Shown: positions 5-44,923 of the stretch, in pieces
Layout: each line of letters begins with the position of its first letter
Position numbering within the stretch: position 1 is the first letter of the stretch
Assembly: GCF_026988655.1 (NCBI RefSeq)
Contig: NZ_JALSKT010000061.1
Location: 1 to 44,923, forward strand
Source of the DNA: Sulfurimonas sp.
GTDB taxonomy: Bacteria; Campylobacterota; Campylobacteria; Campylobacterales; Sulfurimonadaceae
DNA: 44,923 bases
Direction of reading: 5' to 3'
The notes under the pieces: model-generated
Databases searched by the model: none
What the model saw: only the letters and a program-made list of their open reading frames with translations
What the model was told of the DNA's origin: nothing
Program-made: the position numbers and the translations under genes

Positions 5-2605
5 TTATTTCTTCTTTATATCTACTGGAATTTCGATGACAAAAGTTGTTGATCCATCATGACTACTTACAGAAATAGAACCGCTAAATTGCTTTTCTAC
101 AATCATTTTTGACATATACAAACCTAAGCCTGTGCCATTTTTTCCTTTTGTACTCATGTAAGGTTCAAATACTTCAAGTAATATTGTCTTATCTATCCCA
201 CCAGCATGATCTTTGATGGAGATTTTCACTCTCTTGTCTTTCACTTCACAAACTACACTAATATCTTTGAGACTTTGCGATGAAGCTGACTGATAAGCAT
301 CAATAGCGTTATTTATAATATTTAAAAGCACTTGAATAAGTTCATTTGTATAAGTGTTTAGTACAAGTTCCTCTTCACATTCTACTTTTATAACAATATT
401 ATTTTTTTTCAGTCTTGGTGTAATAAAATTGATGACTTTTTGCATCACTTCATTAAACTTCACAGCTGTTGCTTCTTTGTTGGGATGAAAGTATGTTTTA
501 AAATCATCAATAGTATTTGAGAGATACACCATCGTTTGGTTGATGTTTTCTAAAGTTTTAAGTAACTCTTCTTTTTCAACCTTTTGTCCAACCATATCTT
601 TGAGTTGTATATTTGAAATTTGCAAAGTAATCATATTTAATGGTTGTCTCCACTGATGTGCTATCATACTTATCATCTCACCCATGACTGCCTGTTTGGA
701 TTGTCTTGTTAGTATCTCATCTTTTTTTATCAACTCATTTACTTTTTCTTGAACAGTGGCTTCAAGTGAGTCATTTATCTCTCGTAACTCTTTTGTTTTG
801 TTATCAACTAACTTTTCTAGTTCAAGATTAAATCTTTTGAGTTTTCTTTGATAATACGCCATGATTAAGAAGATAAGAGACATAATTCCTAGAGTAATCC
901 ACATCAAAGAGTAATCAACTGTTTTTTGATATCTTGATATTTTCCAACTCTGTTCAATATTTTTTATGTCGCTAGGCTCTATCGCATCTATCCCTTTTTC
1001 AAGGATGCTATATAATTGAGTTTCATCTTCTTGCAATCCTATGCTTACAGGCATAGGATTGTCTTTTGCTAAAAAACCATTTATTTTTAGTTTGGAGTAT
1101 CCATATTTATCAATGATATAATCAGCCTTTAAGTCAACAGAAATAAGCCCATACACTTTATTTGAAAGAACTTTTTTTACCATTTTTTCTTCATTAGGTT
1201 CTACTTCAATGTTGAGATAAGGATAGAGATACATAAGATGATCTTTATATGATTCCAGCCTTGTTATTAAAACCTTGTTTTTTAAATCACTTGGATTTCT
1301 GACAAAAGATTTATCAGGTTTACTTATCAAAGTAAAAGTAACTTCTGTAAATGGCTTTGTTGGCTTGAGCGTTTTATAGCGTTTGTCTCTAGTAGCATAT
1401 ATAGCTAATATGTCACACTTTTTTGAAGATAGCAGATCCTCTAACTCTTCTTCAGAACTACTTTTAACAGGTTTAAAATCAAGATAGGTCTTCTTACTTA
1501 GCTCTTTATAAAATTCCGCAATCATACCCACCATCTTACCATTTGACACACCTTCAATGGGGAACTGCTTTGGATGTAAACAGACTCTAACACTTGGATG
1601 TGTATCAATATATTCAAAATCTTTATTAGTAAACTTTAAACTTTCTTCTTTCTTTTTAAAAACAAAATTGCGCAGTTCTCGTTCTGAGTCAAGGTTGTGA
1701 TTTTTTTGAAAAATTCTATACTGCTTGTTTAAAAAGTTCATATCAACAGAACCAACATCATAGATAAATGGCAAAATAAGTTTATCTATAGCATCTGCTT
1801 CATATCTCAAATCTTTAATAGAGATATGAGGTGCATATTTTTTATGAATAATTTCAATAATTTCATCTTTATGCTCTAAAGCATACTGCCATCCTCGTAT
1901 GGAAGCATCCCTAAATGCAGTAGCTCTTTTTTCGTGATGTAGAATTTCATTCTTGGATGTAAACAACTCTTCTTGCAGGGAAAAAGTGTTCTCATTTGAG
2001 GGGTCAAGAATATTATACTTTACCCCTAATTCATCAAGTTTATATGGTTGATCTGAAATATATGCTGTCATGGCATCAACTTTGCCTTGTACAAATTCTT
2101 TTACCCTAAAAGTGTGTTGAACCAAAATAAGATCATCACAGGTAATCTGGTGTCCATTAAAATAAGGTTTAAAATTTAACTCCAAATCTTTTCTACTTGA
2201 AGCCATCACACGCTTAGCTCTAAGGTCTTCAACTCTTTTAATCTCTGGTTTTGTAATAAGCACTAAAGCAGAACGTTTAAAAAATGAAGCAAGTAACACA
2301 ACAGGCTTACCCCGCATATACTCAAGTAAAGTATTCGAGTTATAAACCCCATAAGTTGCTTTTCCTGATACGACATTTCCAATAATATCAATGTCATTTT
2401 CATACTCTTTCAATGTCACATCTAAGCCAGCATCACGATAAAAGCCTTTCTCTTTTGCTGCTATAAATCCAGCAAATTCAAACTCATACTTCCAATGAAG
2501 TTGTAGGGAAACTTTTTCTAATTTCGTGTGTAATCTTTCATCAACAATAGTATAGGCATTGAGTATGCCACTATAAAAGATAACAAATAAAACTATTCCT
2601 CGCAT
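5..2605 (-). CDS. NMT1-domain hybrid sensor histidine kinase
   Basis: Membrane sensor kinase of 866 residues. A hydrophobic N-terminus (about 1-18) looks like a signal peptide. An NMT1/ThiY-like substrate-binding domain (about 30-300) and a second periplasmic binding domain of the SBP_bac_3 type (about 335-560) come next. One membrane segment lies near 567-587, then a coiled coil. The HisKA-type H box (AHQWRQP, His near 650) and the HATPase N box (NNAIDA, near 766), G1 (DHAGGID) and G2 (GTGLGLY, near 822) are all intact, so it should be an active kinase. It probably senses a small periplasmic ligand and phosphorylates an unlinked response regulator; none is adjacent. The sensory half is closely similar to the diguanylate cyclase at 29487-31802. 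It starts immediately next to the stop of the upstream deoxyribosyltransferase-like gene, so the two are probably cotranscribed. Ligand unknown. Confidence 0.9.
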   Translation of the reverse strand: MRGIVLFVIFYSGILNAYTIVDERLHTKLEKVSLQLHWKYEFEFAGFIAAKEKGFYRDAGLDVTLKEYENDIDIIGNVVSGKATYGVYNSNTLLEYMRGKPVVLLASFFKRSALVLITKPEIKRVEDLRAKRVMASSRKDLELNFKPYFNGHQITCDDLILVQHTFRVKEFVQGKVDAMTAYISDQPYKLDELGVKYNILDPSNENTFSLQEELFTSKNEILHHEKRATAFRDASIRGWQYALEHKDEIIEIIHKKYAPHISIKDLRYEADAIDKLILPFIYDVGSVDMNFLNKQYRIFQKNHNLDSERELRNFVFKKKEESLKFTNKDFEYIDTHPSVRVCLHPKQFPIEGVSNGKMVGMIAEFYKELSKKTYLDFKPVKSSSEEELEDLLSSKKCDILAIYATRDKRYKTLKPTKPFTEVTFTLISKPDKSFVRNPSDLKNKVLITRLESYKDHLMYLYPYLNIEVEPNEEKMVKKVLSNKVYGLISVDLKADYIIDKYGYSKLKINGFLAKDNPMPVSIGLQEDETQLYSILEKGIDAIEPSDIKNIEQSWKISRYQKTVDYSLMWITLGIMSLIFLIMAYYQRKLKRFNLELEKLVDNKTKELREINDSLEATVQEKVNELIKKDEILTRQSKQAVMGEMISMIAHQWRQPLNMITLQISNIQLKDMVGQKVEKEELLKTLENINQTMVYLSNTIDDFKTYFHPNKEATAVKFNEVMQKVINFITPRLKKNNIVIKVECEEELVLNTYTNELIQVLLNIINNAIDAYQSASSQSLKDISVVCEVKDKRVKISIKDHAGGIDKTILLEVFEPYMSTKGKNGTGLGLYMSKMIVEKQFSGSISVSSHDGSTTFVIEIPVDIKKK

Positions 2606-3103
2606 CTATTCTCCATTTAAAGTTTTTAATACAGTTTCAAAATCACCTTGAATTACTTTTGCACTATGCGCTATCATAAGGTTCACTGGATTGGAAAAAT
2701 CTTCTATAAAACGGTTTTCATTATCCCAAAACATACCATTTTCTTCTCTTTTTTCTTCGGCAGAAAAACTCTCGATATACTCTTTTGTTTCTTGCATGTA
2801 TCCATAGACTTCTTTGCCTATTCCATAGCCATAACCACATTCCCAAACAGTTCCACTATCAGGTTCTTTTCCTCGAAAAGCATTGAGATTTGCAACAATT
2901 ATATCACTCTCTTGAATCATTTTCACATTAGCCTTGAAAATATCTGTAGCTATTTTATGTTTTGGCTGTGAAAAATCAACCACATTATCTAATGGATACA
3001 GACCAATATAGCCATACTTTTCACATAAAGAAACAAGTTTCTTCCCTATTTCTATGGAGTTTTGCTCAAAAACATCAGGTCCTGCGATATATATTTTTTT
3101 CAT
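2606..3103 (-). CDS. nucleoside 2-deoxyribosyltransferase family protein
   Basis: Soluble protein of about 165 residues. The N-terminal KKIYIAGPDVF motif and the DSGTVWECGYGYG segment carry the family's nucleotide-binding loop and catalytic glutamate. Family members transfer deoxyribose between bases or hydrolyse deoxynucleotides, so this may be a salvage or house-cleaning enzyme. Two ATGs are available. The one at 3103 is preferred because an AGGA lies five bases upstream of it, while the ATG at 3109 overlaps that AGGA. It lies directly upstream of the NMT1 kinase with no gap. The substrate cannot be told from sequence. Confidence 0.85.
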   Translation of the reverse strand: MKKIYIAGPDVFEQNSIEIGKKLVSLCEKYGYIGLYPLDNVVDFSQPKHKIATDIFKANVKMIQESDIIVANLNAFRGKEPDSGTVWECGYGYGIGKEVYGYMQETKEYIESFSAEEKREENGMFWDNENRFIEDFSNPVNLMIAHSAKVIQGDFETVLKTLNGE

Positions 3104-3304
3104 AAACATCCTAAATTATTTTTTCAAATTATATCATCTTTAGATTGAATCATTTCGCTTGACATAAATTTAATACGCTAAATCAAAACTCAAGTCATTC
3201 TCAGCTTGACTGTGAATCTAGCTTTTGATTGACCGTGTAAATTTAAGCATATTATTAGAGTATTTTTCATATTCTACTAAAAATCAAATATAAAGAATAA
3301 ACTT

Positions 3305-5236
3305 ATGTCAAATAGATTACAAACAGAAGATTCCCCTTACCTACAACAACACAAAGACAATCCAGTTGATTGGTGGCCTTGGTGCGATGAAGCCTTTGTT
3401 AAAGCAGAAGCTGAAAATAAAGCTATATTTATCTCTATAGGGTACAGTTCATGTCACTGGTGTCATGTTATGGAAAAAAATGTTTTCGAAGATGAGGAGT
3501 GTGCACAAATACTTAACGAAGACTTTATCTGCATAAAAGTTGATCGTGAAGAGCGTCCAGACATTGACAAATATTACCAAGAAGTACATCTTCTTTTAAA
3601 TCGTCGTGCAGGTGGCTGGCCAACAAGTATCTTTTGTACCCCACAAAACAAGCCTTTTTTTGCAGGAACTTACATTCCGCCTGAATCCAATTCAGGAAGT
3701 ATTGAAGGAATGGGTTTTAAGGAGCTTACTCGTCTTATAGCAAACAAAACAAAAGAAATAGATGCAAAACTTTTTGAGAATGCTGATGAAATTGAAGGTT
3801 TTTTAAACCATATTGAGCATCCAAAAGAGGCAACTGTTTTAAAAGAGGACTTTTATAAAAATCTTCTCCTACAAGCAAAAAATAACTATGACACAAGAAA
3901 TGGTGGTTTTTCTGATAAACCAAAATTTCCACAAAGTTCAACACTTTTAGCACTTATGGTTATAGACAGACTTTATAATGATGCATCTGCTAAGGCTATG
4001 GTTACAAACACACTTGAACATATGAGCAAAGGAGGAATGTATGACCTTGTGGATGGTGGTTTTTGCCGTTACAGTGTTGATGAGCGCTGGCTGGTACCTC
4101 ACTTTGAAAAAATGCTCTATGACAATGCTCTTTTATGTGGTGTTTATACCGAAGCCTATCTCAGTTATGAAGATGAAAAATATCTCCGCATTGCAAGAGA
4201 GATAGCAGATTTTTGGTATAACTTTATGAGCGAAGATGATCTTTTTTACAGTGCAAGTGATGCAGATAGTGATGATGCAGAGGGCACATATTTTGTTTAT
4301 AGCTACGAAGAAGTTTATACCGTCTTAGCAGAGCATGGTTATGAAGATGCAAAAGCTATGTGTGAGCAGATGAGTGTCACACACCATGGAAACTTTGAGA
4401 CTAAGAATATCATTCGTTTTGAAGGTGAAATGCCTCAATGGTTTGACGAGGTTCGAGTACTCTTACAAAAGATAAGACAAAACAGAAGCTACCCTTTTAT
4501 AGATAAAAAAGTGCAAACTTCATGGTCAGCTATGATGATTAACTCACTTTTTAAACTTGGTGCAGTCGATAACAATTACAAAGACAAAGCCATCAAAAGT
4601 TTAGACAAACTTTTAGAAACAATGTTTCTTGATGGTGTGCTTTATCACACAACACTCATACATAAAACACCAAAAGTTGAAGCTTTTTTAGAAGACTATG
4701 CTTTTTTAAGTCAAGCTCTCCTTACTGCGTTTAAGTACACACAAAATGAACTTTATCTCATCAATGCACAAAGATTTGCAAACAAAGCCCTTGAAGAGTT
4801 TTATGACAAAGGTTTATGGAACTTTAGCAATGGCGAATTTGCTGTAAAAGCGGAGATAACAGATAGTACATATACTAGTTCTGTCAGTATTATGATTGAT
4901 ACACTGATGCGTTTAGGTACGATTCTTGAAGATGAAAAATATACACATTTTGCTTTTAAAACTATGGAGTACAACTCTTATGAACTTGGACGCCGACCTA
5001 TTTACTATCCATATATGCTCATCCAGGCATTACGTTATGTCAAAGGAGATAGAATCGTAAAATCGCAAGAACATAATCTTACTAACAATGCACTTGCACT
5101 TTCAAAACTCAAATATCCTTTTATAGAATTAAAAAAGAGTGAAGATCAAGATTTTATGGTTTGTGGGCAAATGAGTTGTTTTGCACACACTAGCAATATC
5201 AATGAGATAGAAAATATCATTAAAAACTCTTTTTAA
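3305..5236 (+). CDS. thioredoxin domain-containing protein (YyaL/DUF255, SSP411-like)
   Basis: Protein of 643 residues with the full YyaL/SPATA20 family architecture. The N-terminal thioredoxin-like DUF255 domain has a CHWC redox motif at residues 50-53 in the typical [14 protein letters not shown] setting. A long (alpha/alpha)6-barrel region follows, resembling N-acylglucosamine 2-epimerase and glycosidase folds (motifs SPKFPQSS-like near 205 and [10 protein letters not shown] near 263). No signal peptide, so it is cytoplasmic. The exact function of the family is not established; a redox or carbohydrate-linked role is only inferred. It starts a plus-strand series leading to ppk2. Confidence 0.9.
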
Positions 5237-5284
5237 TCTTTATTGATTTATAATCTAATAAGAGCGAATAAAAGGAAAATGAAT

Positions 5285-6223
5285 ATGGGACATAAAAGAA
5301 ATATTTTAGATGATGAGTTAACAGATGGTGCAGTACTGCAAGAGATTACGCATGAGGATAGACGAGAAAAAAAATCTCAAAATAACAAATATGACAAAAG
5401 AGATAAAGACCCACATAAAAAGCGTGTAGCAGTATGGGTTAAAGATGAAGTGTTGCAGTATGAGGATGAACTTAAAACTTTGCAAATAGAACTCCTCAAG
5501 ATGCAAAACTATGTTAAAGATACGGGACAAAAAGTTTTGATGATTTTTGAAGGTCGTGATGCAGCTGGAAAAGGTGGAACGATCAAACGAATCACAGAAC
5601 ACCTTAATCCTCGTGGTGCAAGAGTTGTAGCGCTTGATAAACCTAGTGATAAAGAGAGAACACAGTGGTATTTTCAAAGATATGTGCAGCATCTTCCATC
5701 AGCTGGTGAGATTGTACTCTTTGACAGAAGTTATTACAATCGTGCTGGTGTTGAGCCTGTTATGGGATTTTGTACGCAGGAGGAACATAAAGAGTTTTTA
5801 CACGAAGTTCCAGAGTTTGAAAAAATGCTTGTCAATTCAGATATTAAAATATTCAAATTTTATTTTTCTGTTTCAAAAGCTGAGCAAAAAAAACGTTTTG
5901 ACAAACGTAGAACAGATCCACTCAAGCAGTATAAGCTCTCTCCTGTTGATGAAAAATCTCAAGGCTTGTGGGACAAGTACACGATTGCTAAATACTCTAT
6001 GCTTTTAGCATCCCATACAGATCATGCTCCATGGACTATCATACGTTCAGATAACAAAAAAAGAGCGCGAGTCAATTGTATCAAACATATTCTCAACCAT
6101 TTTGATTACCCTAATAAAATAAGCAAGAAAAAACTCAAAGCTGATGAGGAGATTAGAATCTTTGCCAATGATGAGATAAAACTTATGGAAACTGAGATGA
6201 CACTCAAGAAAAATAATGCTTAA
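5285..6223 (+). CDS. ppk2: polyphosphate kinase 2 (PPK2 family)
   Basis: Transfers phosphate between polyphosphate and nucleotides. Walker A (GRDAAGKGG, residues 90-98) and the Walker B-like VLFDRSYYNRAGVE segment are intact, and the lid and C-terminal WDKYT, HAPWTII and SDNKKRAR-type motifs of one-domain class I PPK2 are present. The ATG at 5285 is preferred because an AAAGGA ends eight bases upstream; the ATG at 5279 lies only two bases from it. This gives 312 residues. The charged N-terminus before residue 50 is typical of longer PPK2s. PPK2 subclass, and hence direction (GDP/ADP phosphorylation or polyphosphate synthesis), is not resolved. Confidence 0.93.
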   Translation: MGHKRNILDDELTDGAVLQEITHEDRREKKSQNNKYDKRDKDPHKKRVAVWVKDEVLQYEDELKTLQIELLKMQNYVKDTGQKVLMIFEGRDAAGKGGTIKRITEHLNPRGARVVALDKPSDKERTQWYFQRYVQHLPSAGEIVLFDRSYYNRAGVEPVMGFCTQEEHKEFLHEVPEFEKMLVNSDIKIFKFYFSVSKAEQKKRFDKRRTDPLKQYKLSPVDEKSQGLWDKYTIAKYSMLLASHTDHAPWTIIRSDNKKRARVNCIKHILNHFDYPNKISKKKLKADEEIRIFANDEIKLMETEMTLKKNNA

Positions 6224-42246: not shown

Positions 42247-42255
42247 TGCTATAAT
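42247..42255 (+). promoter_or_regulatory. extended -10 promoter of the precursor peptide gene
   Basis: TGCTATAAT is a perfect extended -10 (TG-N-TATAAT, with TATAAT at 42250-42255). Transcription should start near 42262, about 23 bases before the precursor ATG. No good -35 at normal spacing, as allowed for extended -10 promoters. It gives the cassette its own promoter separate from the M16 gene. Confidence 0.6.
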
Positions 42256-42284
42256 AACAATAGTAATTTGAAAAGGATAAAAAT

Positions 42285-42464
42285 ATGAAAAATAGTGAAC
42301 AAAATAAGATTGACTCGACCAAGAGAGAGTTTATAAAAAAATTTGGCACGTATGCCTCAACTGCACCTGTTGGTATGTATATGCTTATGACCCCAAGCAG
42401 TTCAGCCGCTCATACATCTGGAAACTTCACACTAATGTCTAATAATCAGAGACGTGGTTCTTAG
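42285..42464 (+). CDS. 59-residue putative RiPP precursor peptide
   Basis: Residues 8-19 are basic and contain TKREFIK, close to the twin-arginine consensus with Lys replacing the first Arg. A hydrophobic, Met-rich stretch (about 22-36) and SSSAA (38-42) follow, then a polar C-terminal segment ending QRRGS, with Ser59 as the last residue. AAGGA lies 8 bases before the ATG. It is followed by an HprK-related kinase gene and a nucleotidyltransferase gene. HprK-type kinases phosphorylate the C-terminal Ser of some lasso precursors, and this peptide ends in Ser. There is no Asp/Glu after residue 15, so a classical lasso ring cannot form. Function inferred from context. Confidence 0.65.
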   Translation: MKNSEQNKIDSTKREFIKKFGTYASTAPVGMYMLMTPSSSAAHTSGNFTLMSNNQRRGS

Positions 42465-42517
42465 GGACATGGCAAGTAAGTTCTCCTCAAAAAGTTAATT
42501 ATATTTAAGGATTCAGT

Positions 42518-43651
42518 ATCAACTTTACAAAGATACCTTTAAAATGTAAATTTTTACATGCTTGTATCTTAAGAGATTCTCTCTTAATTTTTTCAGAAAT
42601 TAATGATGTGGTTTATGGATTTGAACGTCAGAATGCAGCTCTTTTTTTAGAAGTAGATTCTTTAATATCTTCTAATATTACAAAGGAGAATATTTTTCTC
42701 CAATTCCCTAATATTTCATTAGATATACTGGAAAGAATTTACACACTAGCTACTTGTGATCCTAATCAAAAAAAAGAATCATACACTCAAAAACTAGATA
42801 TTAAAAAATATACTAAAGATGATTGTAAGAGAATTTCATATGTTGCACAAGGGACAACATTTTTTTTGAACTATAAAGATGAATCGCTATACAAACTAAT
42901 TCATCCTGTTTTGTCGCACATGTGTAGTGAAGATTATACAACTCACAAAATTTCTGTTGATTTTATTTATCATAAAAAGGATTATTGGGTAATACATTTC
43001 AATAATACAGAGGTTTGCGAACCTACACATATTTCCAAAATTATGTTAGTTTTACAAGATATAATGCTTATTGCTTTATACCAATCAAAAAAACATCTTA
43101 TATCTATACACGCAGCGACTTTAGAATATCATAAAAATGTTTTTTTATTTCCTGCAATAAGCGGATCTGGGAAAACCACTCTTGCTGCTGCACTTATGAA
43201 AAGTAACTTTACTTTATACTCTGATGAATTAGCGATCATAGATCTCAAAGGAAATATTCTACCTTTACCCTTTCCTCTTAGTATTAAGGAAGGGAGCTGG
43301 AAGATCCTTAAAGACAGTTATCCAATATTATCAAAAACTGATTATCATATCCGTTTTGACAACCAAAAAGTAAAATATTTACCACCCGAACATAAAGCAG
43401 CTTCCTTCAATAAACCAACACACATTATATTTCCAAAATATACTAAAAATGTAGCAACTAAACTTACTACTCTCAGTGTATGTGAAGCAATGTATCAAAT
43501 CAAAGAAGCTGGATATGAATTGAATGAACCTCTTAATATAGAAAATTTTGAAAAAATTTTAGATTATTTAATGTTACTTCCAGCATACCAGTTAGAATAT
43601 TCATCTTTAGATGAAGCTATAACACTTATTAAAAGCTTCTCAAATGAATAA
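42518..43651 (+). CDS. PqqD-like/HprK-related kinase fusion
   Basis: About 377 residues. Residues 1-90 resemble a PqqD-like peptide-recognition (RRE) domain, with the VVYGFERQNAALFLEVDSLI block. From about 95 on, the HprK-related kinase family is clear: HAATLEY, Walker A FPAISGSGKTTLAAAL (near 213), YSDELAIIDLKGNILPLPFPLSIKEGSW, YLPP and the PAYQLEYSSLDEAI end. The frame is open from 42509 but has no ATG, GTG or TTG before the GTG at 42608. The AAGGA at 42507-42511 lies 6 bases from ATC at 42518, which I take as the start. If 42608 is used, about 30 residues of the domain are lost. It overlaps the next gene by 8 bases. Confidence 0.8.
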   Translation: MNFTKIPLKCKFLHACILRDSLLIFSEINDVVYGFERQNAALFLEVDSLISSNITKENIFLQFPNISLDILERIYTLATCDPNQKKESYTQKLDIKKYTKDDCKRISYVAQGTTFFLNYKDESLYKLIHPVLSHMCSEDYTTHKISVDFIYHKKDYWVIHFNNTEVCEPTHISKIMLVLQDIMLIALYQSKKHLISIHAATLEYHKNVFLFPAISGSGKTTLAAALMKSNFTLYSDELAIIDLKGNILPLPFPLSIKEGSWKILKDSYPILSKTDYHIRFDNQKVKYLPPEHKAASFNKPTHIIFPKYTKNVATKLTTLSVCEAMYQIKEAGYELNEPLNIENFEKILDYLMLLPAYQLEYSSLDEAITLIKSFSNE

Positions 43652-44765
43652 TGTCAATTCTTTCAAAATTTTATGTTCAATACTAGAAACAGCACATGAT
43701 ACTAATGTAATCAAATTGAAAAAAGATATTATCACTAATACTATTCCATGGAATGAAGTGATAAAAATAGCTAATAATACATATCTAATTCCTGCAGTGT
43801 ATTATTCATTACAAGAAAAAAAGCTTTTTCAATATATTACCGACCAACAGCTCTGTGAATATTTATCTACAATTTTTGAATTTAATACCCAACGCAATAT
43901 AGAAATATTAAATCAACTTTTAGATTTAAATAATACTCTACATGATCTAAATATCTCACCAATTTTTTTAAAAGGTTCAGCACTATTATGTGAAAATACT
44001 TATGAAAAAATAGGTATAAGACATTTAACTGATATAGATATATTAATCGAAAAAAATAAAATAGAAATTGCATTAAATGAACTTTTTGACCATGGTTATA
44101 GTTATCTAAACAAAAATACGACAAATAACATAGATATAAATTCACATCATGTAAGTCCAATATCAAAAGAAGGAATGCCCACATCTGTAGAAATACATCG
44201 AACTGTTCTTGGAGAGAGTGCTGTAAAATTCATGCCTAATCCTCAAAACTATACAGTAAATTGTTCCCATCCAGATTTTATAAATGCAAAAATATTTAAA
44301 CCTACTTACATTATATATCATGCCTTTTTACATACTGAATTACAAGATGAAAACCATAAATATAAAAGATTAGATTTACGGCATCTATATGATTTTGTGA
44401 CCATAGTAAACAAATATAATAATGAAATAAACTGGAAATTATTACATCATTTGACAACAAAAATAAATTGCCAAGAGATTTTATATGATTACTTATATCT
44501 TGCAAAGATGTTTTTTTTCTTAGATACACCTTTAACAATTGAAAATAAACATACAATTCTACATTATAAAAAAGTTTTAAAAGGTATTGCATTAGAAAAC
44601 ACAATTTTAGAGAAATTTTATCCTTTGTCATGTTTTATACCTAAATTAACAAAAGCCTACTCTCGCAAAAGATTAGAAAAAATATATGGATTTAATTCTA
44701 ATATAGGATATTTTATAGCAACTTTGAAATATATGTTCTTTCATATAAAAAATATAAAACTTTAA
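43644..44765 (+). CDS. nucleotidyltransferase, NTP_transf_5-type
   Basis: Protein of 373 residues with a nucleotidyltransferase core: a GS motif in FLKGSALL (near 109-115) and the metal-binding DxD in RHLTDIDILIE (near 129), spaced as in NTP_transf_5 family members. No signal peptide or membrane segment. This family accompanies HprK-related kinases in peptide-modification loci. It overlaps the kinase gene by 8 bases. It could add a nucleotide or further phosphate to the kinase product. The gene is clearly more AT-rich than the chromosome around it, suggesting acquisition. Confidence 0.8.
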   Translation: MNNVNSFKILCSILETAHDTNVIKLKKDIITNTIPWNEVIKIANNTYLIPAVYYSLQEKKLFQYITDQQLCEYLSTIFEFNTQRNIEILNQLLDLNNTLHDLNISPIFLKGSALLCENTYEKIGIRHLTDIDILIEKNKIEIALNELFDHGYSYLNKNTTNNIDINSHHVSPISKEGMPTSVEIHRTVLGESAVKFMPNPQNYTVNCSHPDFINAKIFKPTYIIYHAFLHTELQDENHKYKRLDLRHLYDFVTIVNKYNNEINWKLLHHLTTKINCQEILYDYLYLAKMFFFLDTPLTIENKHTILHYKKVLKGIALENTILEKFYPLSCFIPKLTKAYSRKRLEKIYGFNSNIGYFIATLKYMFFHIKNIKL

Positions 44766-44852
44766 AAAATGAAACTGCTTTGTAGTACTTCTGTATAGTA
44801 TAATGCACCCCAAAATCAAGACCAGTAAATCAAATATTTTAATTTCACCTCT

Positions 44853-44923
44853 CTATGATACCAGTGGTAACAGATTTACTCCTTTTTCATCTAAATTATT
44901 ATCAGCTTGATAGTAAACTTCAT
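44853..44923 (-). CDS. partial C-terminus of a gene running off the window
   Basis: The minus-strand frame entering from the right edge encodes EVYYQADNNLDEKGVNLLPLV-Ser before a TAG at 44853-44855. The reading is open with plausible codons, but it is only 23 codons and I do not recognise it. It may be unrelated to the peptide cassette. Confidence 0.3.
   Translation of the reverse strand, partial: EVYYQADNNLDEKGVNLLPLVS

Follow-up and report, generated by a model that had tools for sequence, protein, structure and literature searches.

The stretch of DNA considered here, hereafter the window, is the entire 44,923-nucleotide contig NZ_JALSKT010000061.1 (C61:1-44923) of Sulfurimonas sp. (assembly GCF_026988655.1), and the sequence view ends at 44923. 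Near its right end lie a 59-codon open reading frame (ORF), a gene for a kinase related to HprK and a gene for a nucleotidyltransferase which overlaps the kinase gene by 8 bases (Table 1). An earlier note, drawn from the letters alone, had described these genes as a cassette resembling those of ribosomally synthesized and post-translationally modified peptides (RiPPs). The features that can be read directly from the sequence, namely the three frames, the promoter element, the ribosome binding site (RBS), the overlap, the Walker A motif and the SDELAIID motif, are all found where that note had placed them.

A search for the kinase across 398 genomes from the same order, its own included, gave 14 matches. 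Comparisons of loci rest on the 12 strong ones (the own genome and 11 in one genus of another family), the weaker two being G107 (3.5e-4) and G241 (4.8e-4). One or two small ORFs with the consensus DEAKREFMKKFGKYAATAPLGMYLLMGPGASKA lie immediately upstream of the kinase in 11 of the 12 strong-match loci; in the twelfth, L023, three small ORFs lie 3-5 kb upstream. Two named metagenome-assembled genomes (MAGs), L032 (Sulfurimonas) and L033 (Campylobacterota bacterium), likewise have a leader-type small ORF beside the kinase. A leader of about 33 residues is thus common to small ORFs at 14 Campylobacterota loci and adjoins the kinase in 13 of them, so that the small ORF is conserved next to homologous kinases, a point on which the earlier note had made its reading depend. 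All 14 precursors share D10, R14, F16, K19, G21, G30, L34, S40 and A42 without exception, and the block of the 12 standard precursors reads DxxKRxFxxKxGxxAxxAPxGxYxLxxxxxSxA. Among these 12 (66 pairs), pairwise identity is 77.5% in the 33-residue leader block versus 31% at aligned positions of the cores, which are 17-93 residues long. Codon differences over the same pairs comprise 881 synonymous and 490 nonsynonymous changes, and nucleotide changes number 1192 at the third codon position against 403 and 246 at the others; the precursors from L029, L023 and L033 have deviating blocks and do not enter these counts. A near-fixed leader followed by a divergent core is the pattern of a RiPP-type leader with variable core and, judged by this conservation, the 59-codon gene is genuine and beyond chance. 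A precursor profile run against a sample of the phylum matched in only three of 397 genomes. Stop read-through from precursor to kinase was ruled out, as the two lie in different frames or are separated by two stops (L025), and matches to HxsA4 (two of 14 precursors, best 2.4e-6) were attributed to His/Gly-rich cores. GHH/GHG repeats, suggestive of metal binding, follow SGSC in the cores of L026 (6648-6869), L027 (9386-9580) and L028 (7989-8204).

Signals of the twin-arginine translocation (Tat) pathway follow the consensus (S/T)RRxFLK, with a hydrophobic region and a site of the A-x-A type. The leader shows a similar arrangement and, as had been proposed, a KR variant of the motif is present in most Campylobacterota precursors; TatC was found in the genome. 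A cleavage site near S-S-A-A, leaving about 17 residues, had also been suggested and is supported by Ser40 and Ala42, both kept at this putative site in 14 of 14 precursors. If cut after S-x-A, the presumed core starts with QAS, QQS or HTS, which places Ser third in the 12 standard precursors and in L029; the position of Ser45 as third core residue depends on the assumed cleavage after Ala42.

By its predicted structure (AlphaFold2, 377 residues; pLDDT, the predicted local distance difference test, 92.5), the larger part of the second protein is an HprK/phosphoenolpyruvate carboxykinase (PEPCK)-type kinase. It matches HprK by profile (1.6e-4) and by Foldseek (6e-4), and a structural alignment with PEPCK gives Z 16.1 over 271 residues with a root-mean-square deviation (rmsd) of 4.7. 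PEPCK ranks above HprK as a fold match; the two folds are akin, and the rank is read from the model as kinship with HprK and not as function. The HprK-related assignment made earlier is further borne out by a match to TIGR04352 (HprK_rel_A; 1e-29, 103.5 bits), which lies below the curated cut-off of 200. H198, K219 and D236 are invariant in 18 of 18 kinases, and our guess, by analogy, is that they correspond to the His-Lys-Asp-Asp set reported for lasso kinases (PMC9266682).

Because the list of structural matches for the whole kinase covered the kinase domain only, the N-terminus was modelled alone (AlphaFold2, pLDDT 88.4). TbiB1 with leader peptide occupied Foldseek ranks 1-3 (E 0.03-0.06), and 11 of the first 14 VIA-align entries were RiPP proteins, among them MccB, a sactipeptide enzyme, TfuB1, TbiB1, TigE, McbBCD and ThcOx, all 11 of which we take to carry a RiPP recognition element (RRE). 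These entries span Z 4.5-7.2, the highest being that of MccB (75 residues, rmsd 4.3). The sequences lend indirect support: in fused relatives, Pfam PqqD matches at the same N-terminal place (L036, a gammaproteobacterial MAG, 4.7e-11; L045, Vineibacter, 1e-7), and an N-terminal profile with PqqD-bearing rows finds TbiB1, TfuB1 and a lasso PqqD-family chaperone. The kinase N-terminus is hence predicted to fold as an RRE, in line with the PqqD-HprK fusion put forward in the earlier note. A precursor with conserved leader and variable core adjoins an enzyme that bears, by predicted structure, an RRE, as in RiPP pathways, and the RiPP-like character claimed for the cassette is supported by this leader and core pattern together with the gene linkage.

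The assignment of the third protein to the NTP_transf_5 type was confirmed by Pfam. Across 14 members K110, G111, R126, D130, D132, L147, G151, H185, H226 and H230 are invariant, so the nucleotidyltransferase looks active from its sequence. Its gene adjoins the kinase gene in all 12 loci with enough contig (L024 and L033, whose contigs end too soon, are left out of this count), although L025 has it in shortened form and L023 carries it on the opposite strand.

A scan of genome contigs with the single kinase as query gave no match; an alignment-based kinase scan of 84,980 species genomes returned at least 74 loci. A loose regular expression for Tat motifs within 4 kb of these 74 loci was satisfied at 39 loci, compared with 20 when the opposite strand was read and 17 when the sequence was reversed (39 versus 16 in an earlier form). 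As it did not discriminate, it was replaced by a search for Tat-like ORFs on the same strand within 2.6 kb upstream of the kinase, compared with 300 shufflings of ORF residues. Such an ORF is present at 34 of the 74 loci among the matches listed, against a shuffled mean of 2.0 and maximum of 7. The 34 comprise four Campylobacterota, 21 Sphingomonadales, a share that makes the loci not independent, and nine from other proteobacteria and planctomycetes: L039 and L040 (betaproteobacteria); L044 and L076 (alphaproteobacteria by title); L049; L084 and L093 (Alteromonadaceae and Alteromonas); and L047 and L048 (Planctomycetota). L041, L042, L045 and L071 have Tat-like ORFs by eye, yet fall outside the 34. 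Sphingomonad loci mostly encode proteins of 130-180 residues with a Tat-like N-terminus before the kinase and nucleotidyltransferase, with a PqqD-like ORF in between in L097; the stand-alone PqqD of L041, the sole locus tested by model, matches TIGR04353 (PqqD_rel_X, 7.2e-21). Small Tat-like proteins whose ends resemble SGFTCYASLQMPR are encoded upstream of HprK and nucleotidyltransferase genes at Sphingomonadales loci such as L059 (3645-4085); NCBIfam gave no match for those of L059 and L053, nor did Pfam for that of L059. YxxPxV is the kind of motif bound by discrete RREs. It occurs exactly in the Tat-like hydrophobic region of the planctomycete L047 and L048, and as YxxPxM in the alphaproteobacterial L042 and L044; in the leaders of Campylobacterota the Pro is retained, though at another spacing.

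The closest comparison is offered by the linear polyphosphorylated peptides (LPPs) of Bacillota. There the HprK-like LppK is reported to phosphorylate a linear peptide several times at core Ser3, and an RRE and an NTP transferase are encoded alongside the kinase (PMC13381572). Counterparts of all three components recur here, the kinases being alike in kind, with the present one a putative peptide kinase, and the NTP transferases (here PF14907, 1.8e-35) being likened by name and not by the Pfam class of LppN. Both systems also share precursors of 35-200 residues, which number one to three at each locus and are constant at the N-terminus but variable at the C-terminus, the lack of an own cyclase, a frequent position beside capsule genes (LPPs in Bacilli; here the exopolysaccharide genes of L032), a patchy distribution and Ser at core position 3 (core AQS in LPPs; here if cut after Ala42). 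They differ in that the RRE of LPPs stands alone whereas it is fused here to the kinase N-terminus, in the Tat-like leader, which lacks the YxxPxVLxHQxIxFETxxS of LPPs, in the absence of a SipW-like LppS or MsbA-like LppD among the neighbours scanned here, and in a probable beta-propeller lipoprotein upstream in one clade. With the HPr-rel-A cassettes (TIGR04352, TIGR04353) the window shares the kinase family (here below cut-off), a PqqD-like domain and an NTP_transf_5 neighbour, although the PqqD-like domain is fused in the window and the model descriptions consulted name no substrate. Paeninodin and pseudomycoidin also involve HprK-type peptide kinases, and in the case of pseudomycoidin the phosphopeptide is reported to be acted on further by a protein resembling a nucleotidyltransferase (PMC9266682, PMC8498205); the work on PsmN raises sugar transfer onto the phosphate as an alternative to nucleotidylation (PMC9266682). 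Here, in contrast, there is no lasso B2 protein, no rule of a C-terminal Ser and another leader. The lasso reading was rejected: the B2 peptidase (Transglut_core3) has no match in the genome, estimated to be 96% complete, and the sole full Asn_synthase (contig C73, near the repeat end) is below the lasso cyclase cut-off (199.3 versus 525), while its 415.8 bits exceed the cut-off of 267.1 for asparagine synthase and mark it as an ordinary enzyme of that type. The non-lasso product foreseen by the earlier note fits these results. Among the papers listed by searches of the open literature, none was found to describe a Tat-leader system of this kind, most subscription papers lying outside that coverage.

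Collectively, we regard it as fairly probable that the cassette encodes a linear, non-lasso RiPP-like phosphopeptide pathway akin to the LPPs, in which the leader doubles as a Tat-type signal. For leader binding, phosphorylation and its site, the nucleotidyltransferase reaction, Tat export and cleavage, we infer the following course. The RRE fused to the kinase would bind the precursor leader (residues 1-42) and bring the HprK-type domain to Ser45, where (poly)phosphorylation would occur in the cytoplasm. The NTP_transf_5 protein would then attach a sugar or a nucleotide to the phosphate, and the Tat-like signal of the leader (K-R-x-F, short hydrophobic stretch, S-x-A) would allow the modified peptide to exit via the general Tat pore, with signal peptidase cutting after Ala42. 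Such a use of the general Tat pore and signal peptidase would explain why no dedicated peptidase or transporter was seen kept with the cassette. On this proposal the HPr-rel-A kinase/PqqD/nucleotidyltransferase cassettes gain a candidate substrate, their target being left unnamed in the NCBI model descriptions consulted; it would extend linear phosphopeptide RiPPs, restricted to Bacillota according to the LPP authors (PMC13381572), to Gram-negative bacteria, and it raises the prospect of Tat signals that also serve as RiPP leaders. A Tat-like substrate may be common to HPr-rel-A cassettes. More tentatively, and with somewhat less than an even chance in our estimate, these loci could form a phylum-spanning RiPP-like class in which one N-terminal sequence is both RRE-bound leader and Tat signal, and the Tat pore exports a peptide or small protein that the kinase has modified (phospho- or phosphoglyco-).

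Several observations weigh against the proposed pathway. The kinase gene of the window has no usual start codon, and the kinase scores below the HprK_rel_A cut-off, L041, the single distant relative scored, reaching 405.8 bits. For the RRE, the Foldseek E-values are weak (best 0.03), all VIA-align Z scores are below 8 and by the tool's note possibly reflect a mere common arrangement, and the input alignments of both models include PqqD-bearing rows. Moreover, a profile from Campylobacterota N-termini alone found no RRE in the PDB, Pfam PqqD matched none of the 12 kinases of the group and nothing genome-wide, and hhalign of kinase N-termini with PqqD proteins was weak (Prob 12). In the signal, the first Tat Arg is replaced by Lys in most Campylobacterota precursors, with RR in many distant relatives, and the library Tat models (NCBIfam, Pfam) matched neither the 14 precursors nor two sets of distant Tat-like proteins (eight and five). 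Four of 17 precursors, three from L023 and one from L033, do not clearly have Ser as the third core residue, 40 of the 74 loci among the matches listed have no upstream Tat-like ORF (four of them have less than 800 bases there), and deletion of the NTP transferase in the LPP system reportedly had no visible effect (PMC13381572).

Alternative readings concern the acceptor, the role of the PqqD-like domain and the integrity of the cassette. The earlier note had favored phosphorylation of the C-terminal Ser59, giving a short phosphopeptide as with paeninodin. The peptide does end in Ser, and paeninodin-type kinases act on a C-terminal Ser (PMC9266682, PMC8498205), but only two of 14 precursors end in Ser and seven end in Pro, which makes Ser59 an unlikely target from the sequences, and we consider this alternative very improbable. 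It is also unlikely, in our judgment, that the small proteins are ordinary Tat substrates whose signal is held by the PqqD-like domain, as a chaperone, until folding or metal binding, the kinase and nucleotidyltransferase acting elsewhere, e.g., on a polysaccharide. Such a role would fit the NCBI name of the stand-alone domain ('peptide chaperone'), the exopolysaccharide genes beside the L032 cassette and several His/Gly/Cys-rich cores; however, the fusion of the domain to the kinase ties leader binding to phosphate transfer, and the characterised kinase relatives modify the peptide of their own cluster (PMC13381572, PMC9266682).

The start of the kinase gene bears on whether the window copy is a decaying, inactive module which has lost its start codon. 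The first ATG, GTG or TTG of the frame is GTG 42608, which lies at residue 31 of the aligned kinase and, judged by the alignment, is probably not the start: the frame is open from TAA 42506-42508, about 30 codons further upstream, and the best homologues align from about 42521. ATC 42518, six bases after AAGGA, appears from the sequence to be the best candidate. Together with the 20 other same-genus genomes listed, in which the kinase has no match, this lack of a usual codon speaks for decay. On the other hand, in the Sulfurimonas orthologue of L032 (48% identical) AAGGA is likewise followed, after six bases, by ATA (5985-6025), though with an in-frame TTG seven codons on; the three frames are otherwise intact; the window and L032 leaders differ by 14 synonymous versus four nonsynonymous codons; and TTG fits the aligned kinase start in L011, L020, L022, L024, L026, L027 and L028. 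Decay is hence distinctly improbable to us. ATG starts occur in L023, L029 and L033, and no clear start is seen in L021 and L025. The kinase genes of the Campylobacterota group seem to avoid ATG. For an enzyme gene that follows its presumed substrate gene such starts are unusually weak, and weak initiation would keep the kinase scarce relative to the peptide.

Table 1. Features of the cassette (window coordinates) and of the ORF upstream of precursors at related loci (locus coordinates).
Feature	Position	Strand	Basis
Extended -10 promoter element TGCTATAAT	42247..42255	+	Sequence; TGTTATAAT at corresponding place in L032 (Sulfurimonas)
RBS AAAAGGA, precursor gene	42271..42277	+	Sequence
Precursor peptide, 59 residues; leader 1-42, core 43-59 if cleaved after Ala42	42285..42464	+	Conserved leader/variable core in relatives
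Tat-like motif KREFIK (K13-K18)	42321..42338	+	R14, F16, K19, G21 invariant in 14/14; RR in many distant relatives
Ser40 codon, presumed -3 of S-x-A cleavage site	42402..42404	+	Invariant in 14/14
Ser45 codon, core position 3, best candidate phosphate acceptor	42417..42419	+	Ser in 12/12 standard precursors
AAGGA, probable RBS of kinase gene	42507..42511	+	Spaced six bases from ATC 42518
RRE-HprK fusion kinase, start codon uncertain (ATC 42518)	42518..43651	+	Profiles, homologue alignment, predicted structure
Predicted RRE (PqqD-like) domain, kinase residues 1-79; strands, then three helices	42518..42754	+	AlphaFold2, Foldseek, VIA-align; Pfam PqqD at same place in L036, L045
Walker A SGSGKTT	43160..43180	+	S217, G218, K219, T221 invariant in 18/18
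NTP_transf_5 (PF14907) protein; conserved K110, G111, D130, D132	43644..44765	+	Pfam 1.8e-35; overlaps kinase by 8 bases
Upstream ORF, about 320-430 residues	L020 9998-11239; L021 9788-11035; L022 3594-4679; L024 2035-2994		
Upstream ORF, about 320-430 residues	L025 6993-8273; L026 7033-8292; L027 9680-10957; L028 6569-7840		

A promoter consensus scan did not list the element at 42247-42255 and gave no excess of promoter-like sites (19 versus 21.4 in shuffles). The terminal 124 or so bases of the window (44799-44922) are repeated at the right ends of contigs C73 and C63, 37 of them also in C58, and this repeat is probably the cause of the assembly break. An M16 peptidase gene, present in 30 of 31 genomes searched (own included), precedes the cassette, and different genes lie downstream of it in the six readable same-genus copies (L112, L113, L115, L118, L119 and L120); the cassette is read as accessory.

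In the single-contig genome L027, the unit consists of a probable beta-propeller lipoprotein, precursor, RRE-kinase and nucleotidyltransferase, with no peptidase or exporter, and lies with ObgE and an amino acid kinase to one side and V-type ATPase subunits to the other. No SipW-like peptidase or MsbA-like exporter was found among the proteins scanned: 10 flanking ones of L027, L021 and L026, six at L032 and, in the window, eight encoded upstream. The Sulfurimonas cassette of L032 adjoins exopolysaccharide export genes (Poly_export, Wzz, CpsB_CapC; 1503-5505). At L023 (12237-14073), three longer precursors (two measured: 160 and 182 residues) combine leaders of this type with cores that are related to one another. 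By eye, genes resembling glycosyltransferases lie close by, and several substrates may share one kinase there. Finally, the ORF of about 320-430 residues (Table 1) lies directly upstream of the precursors at eight loci of one clade and was not seen in the window or L032; the four copies scanned show weak YNCE or Cytochrom_D1 matches, and it is probably a beta-propeller lipoprotein, possibly a partner of the exported peptide.

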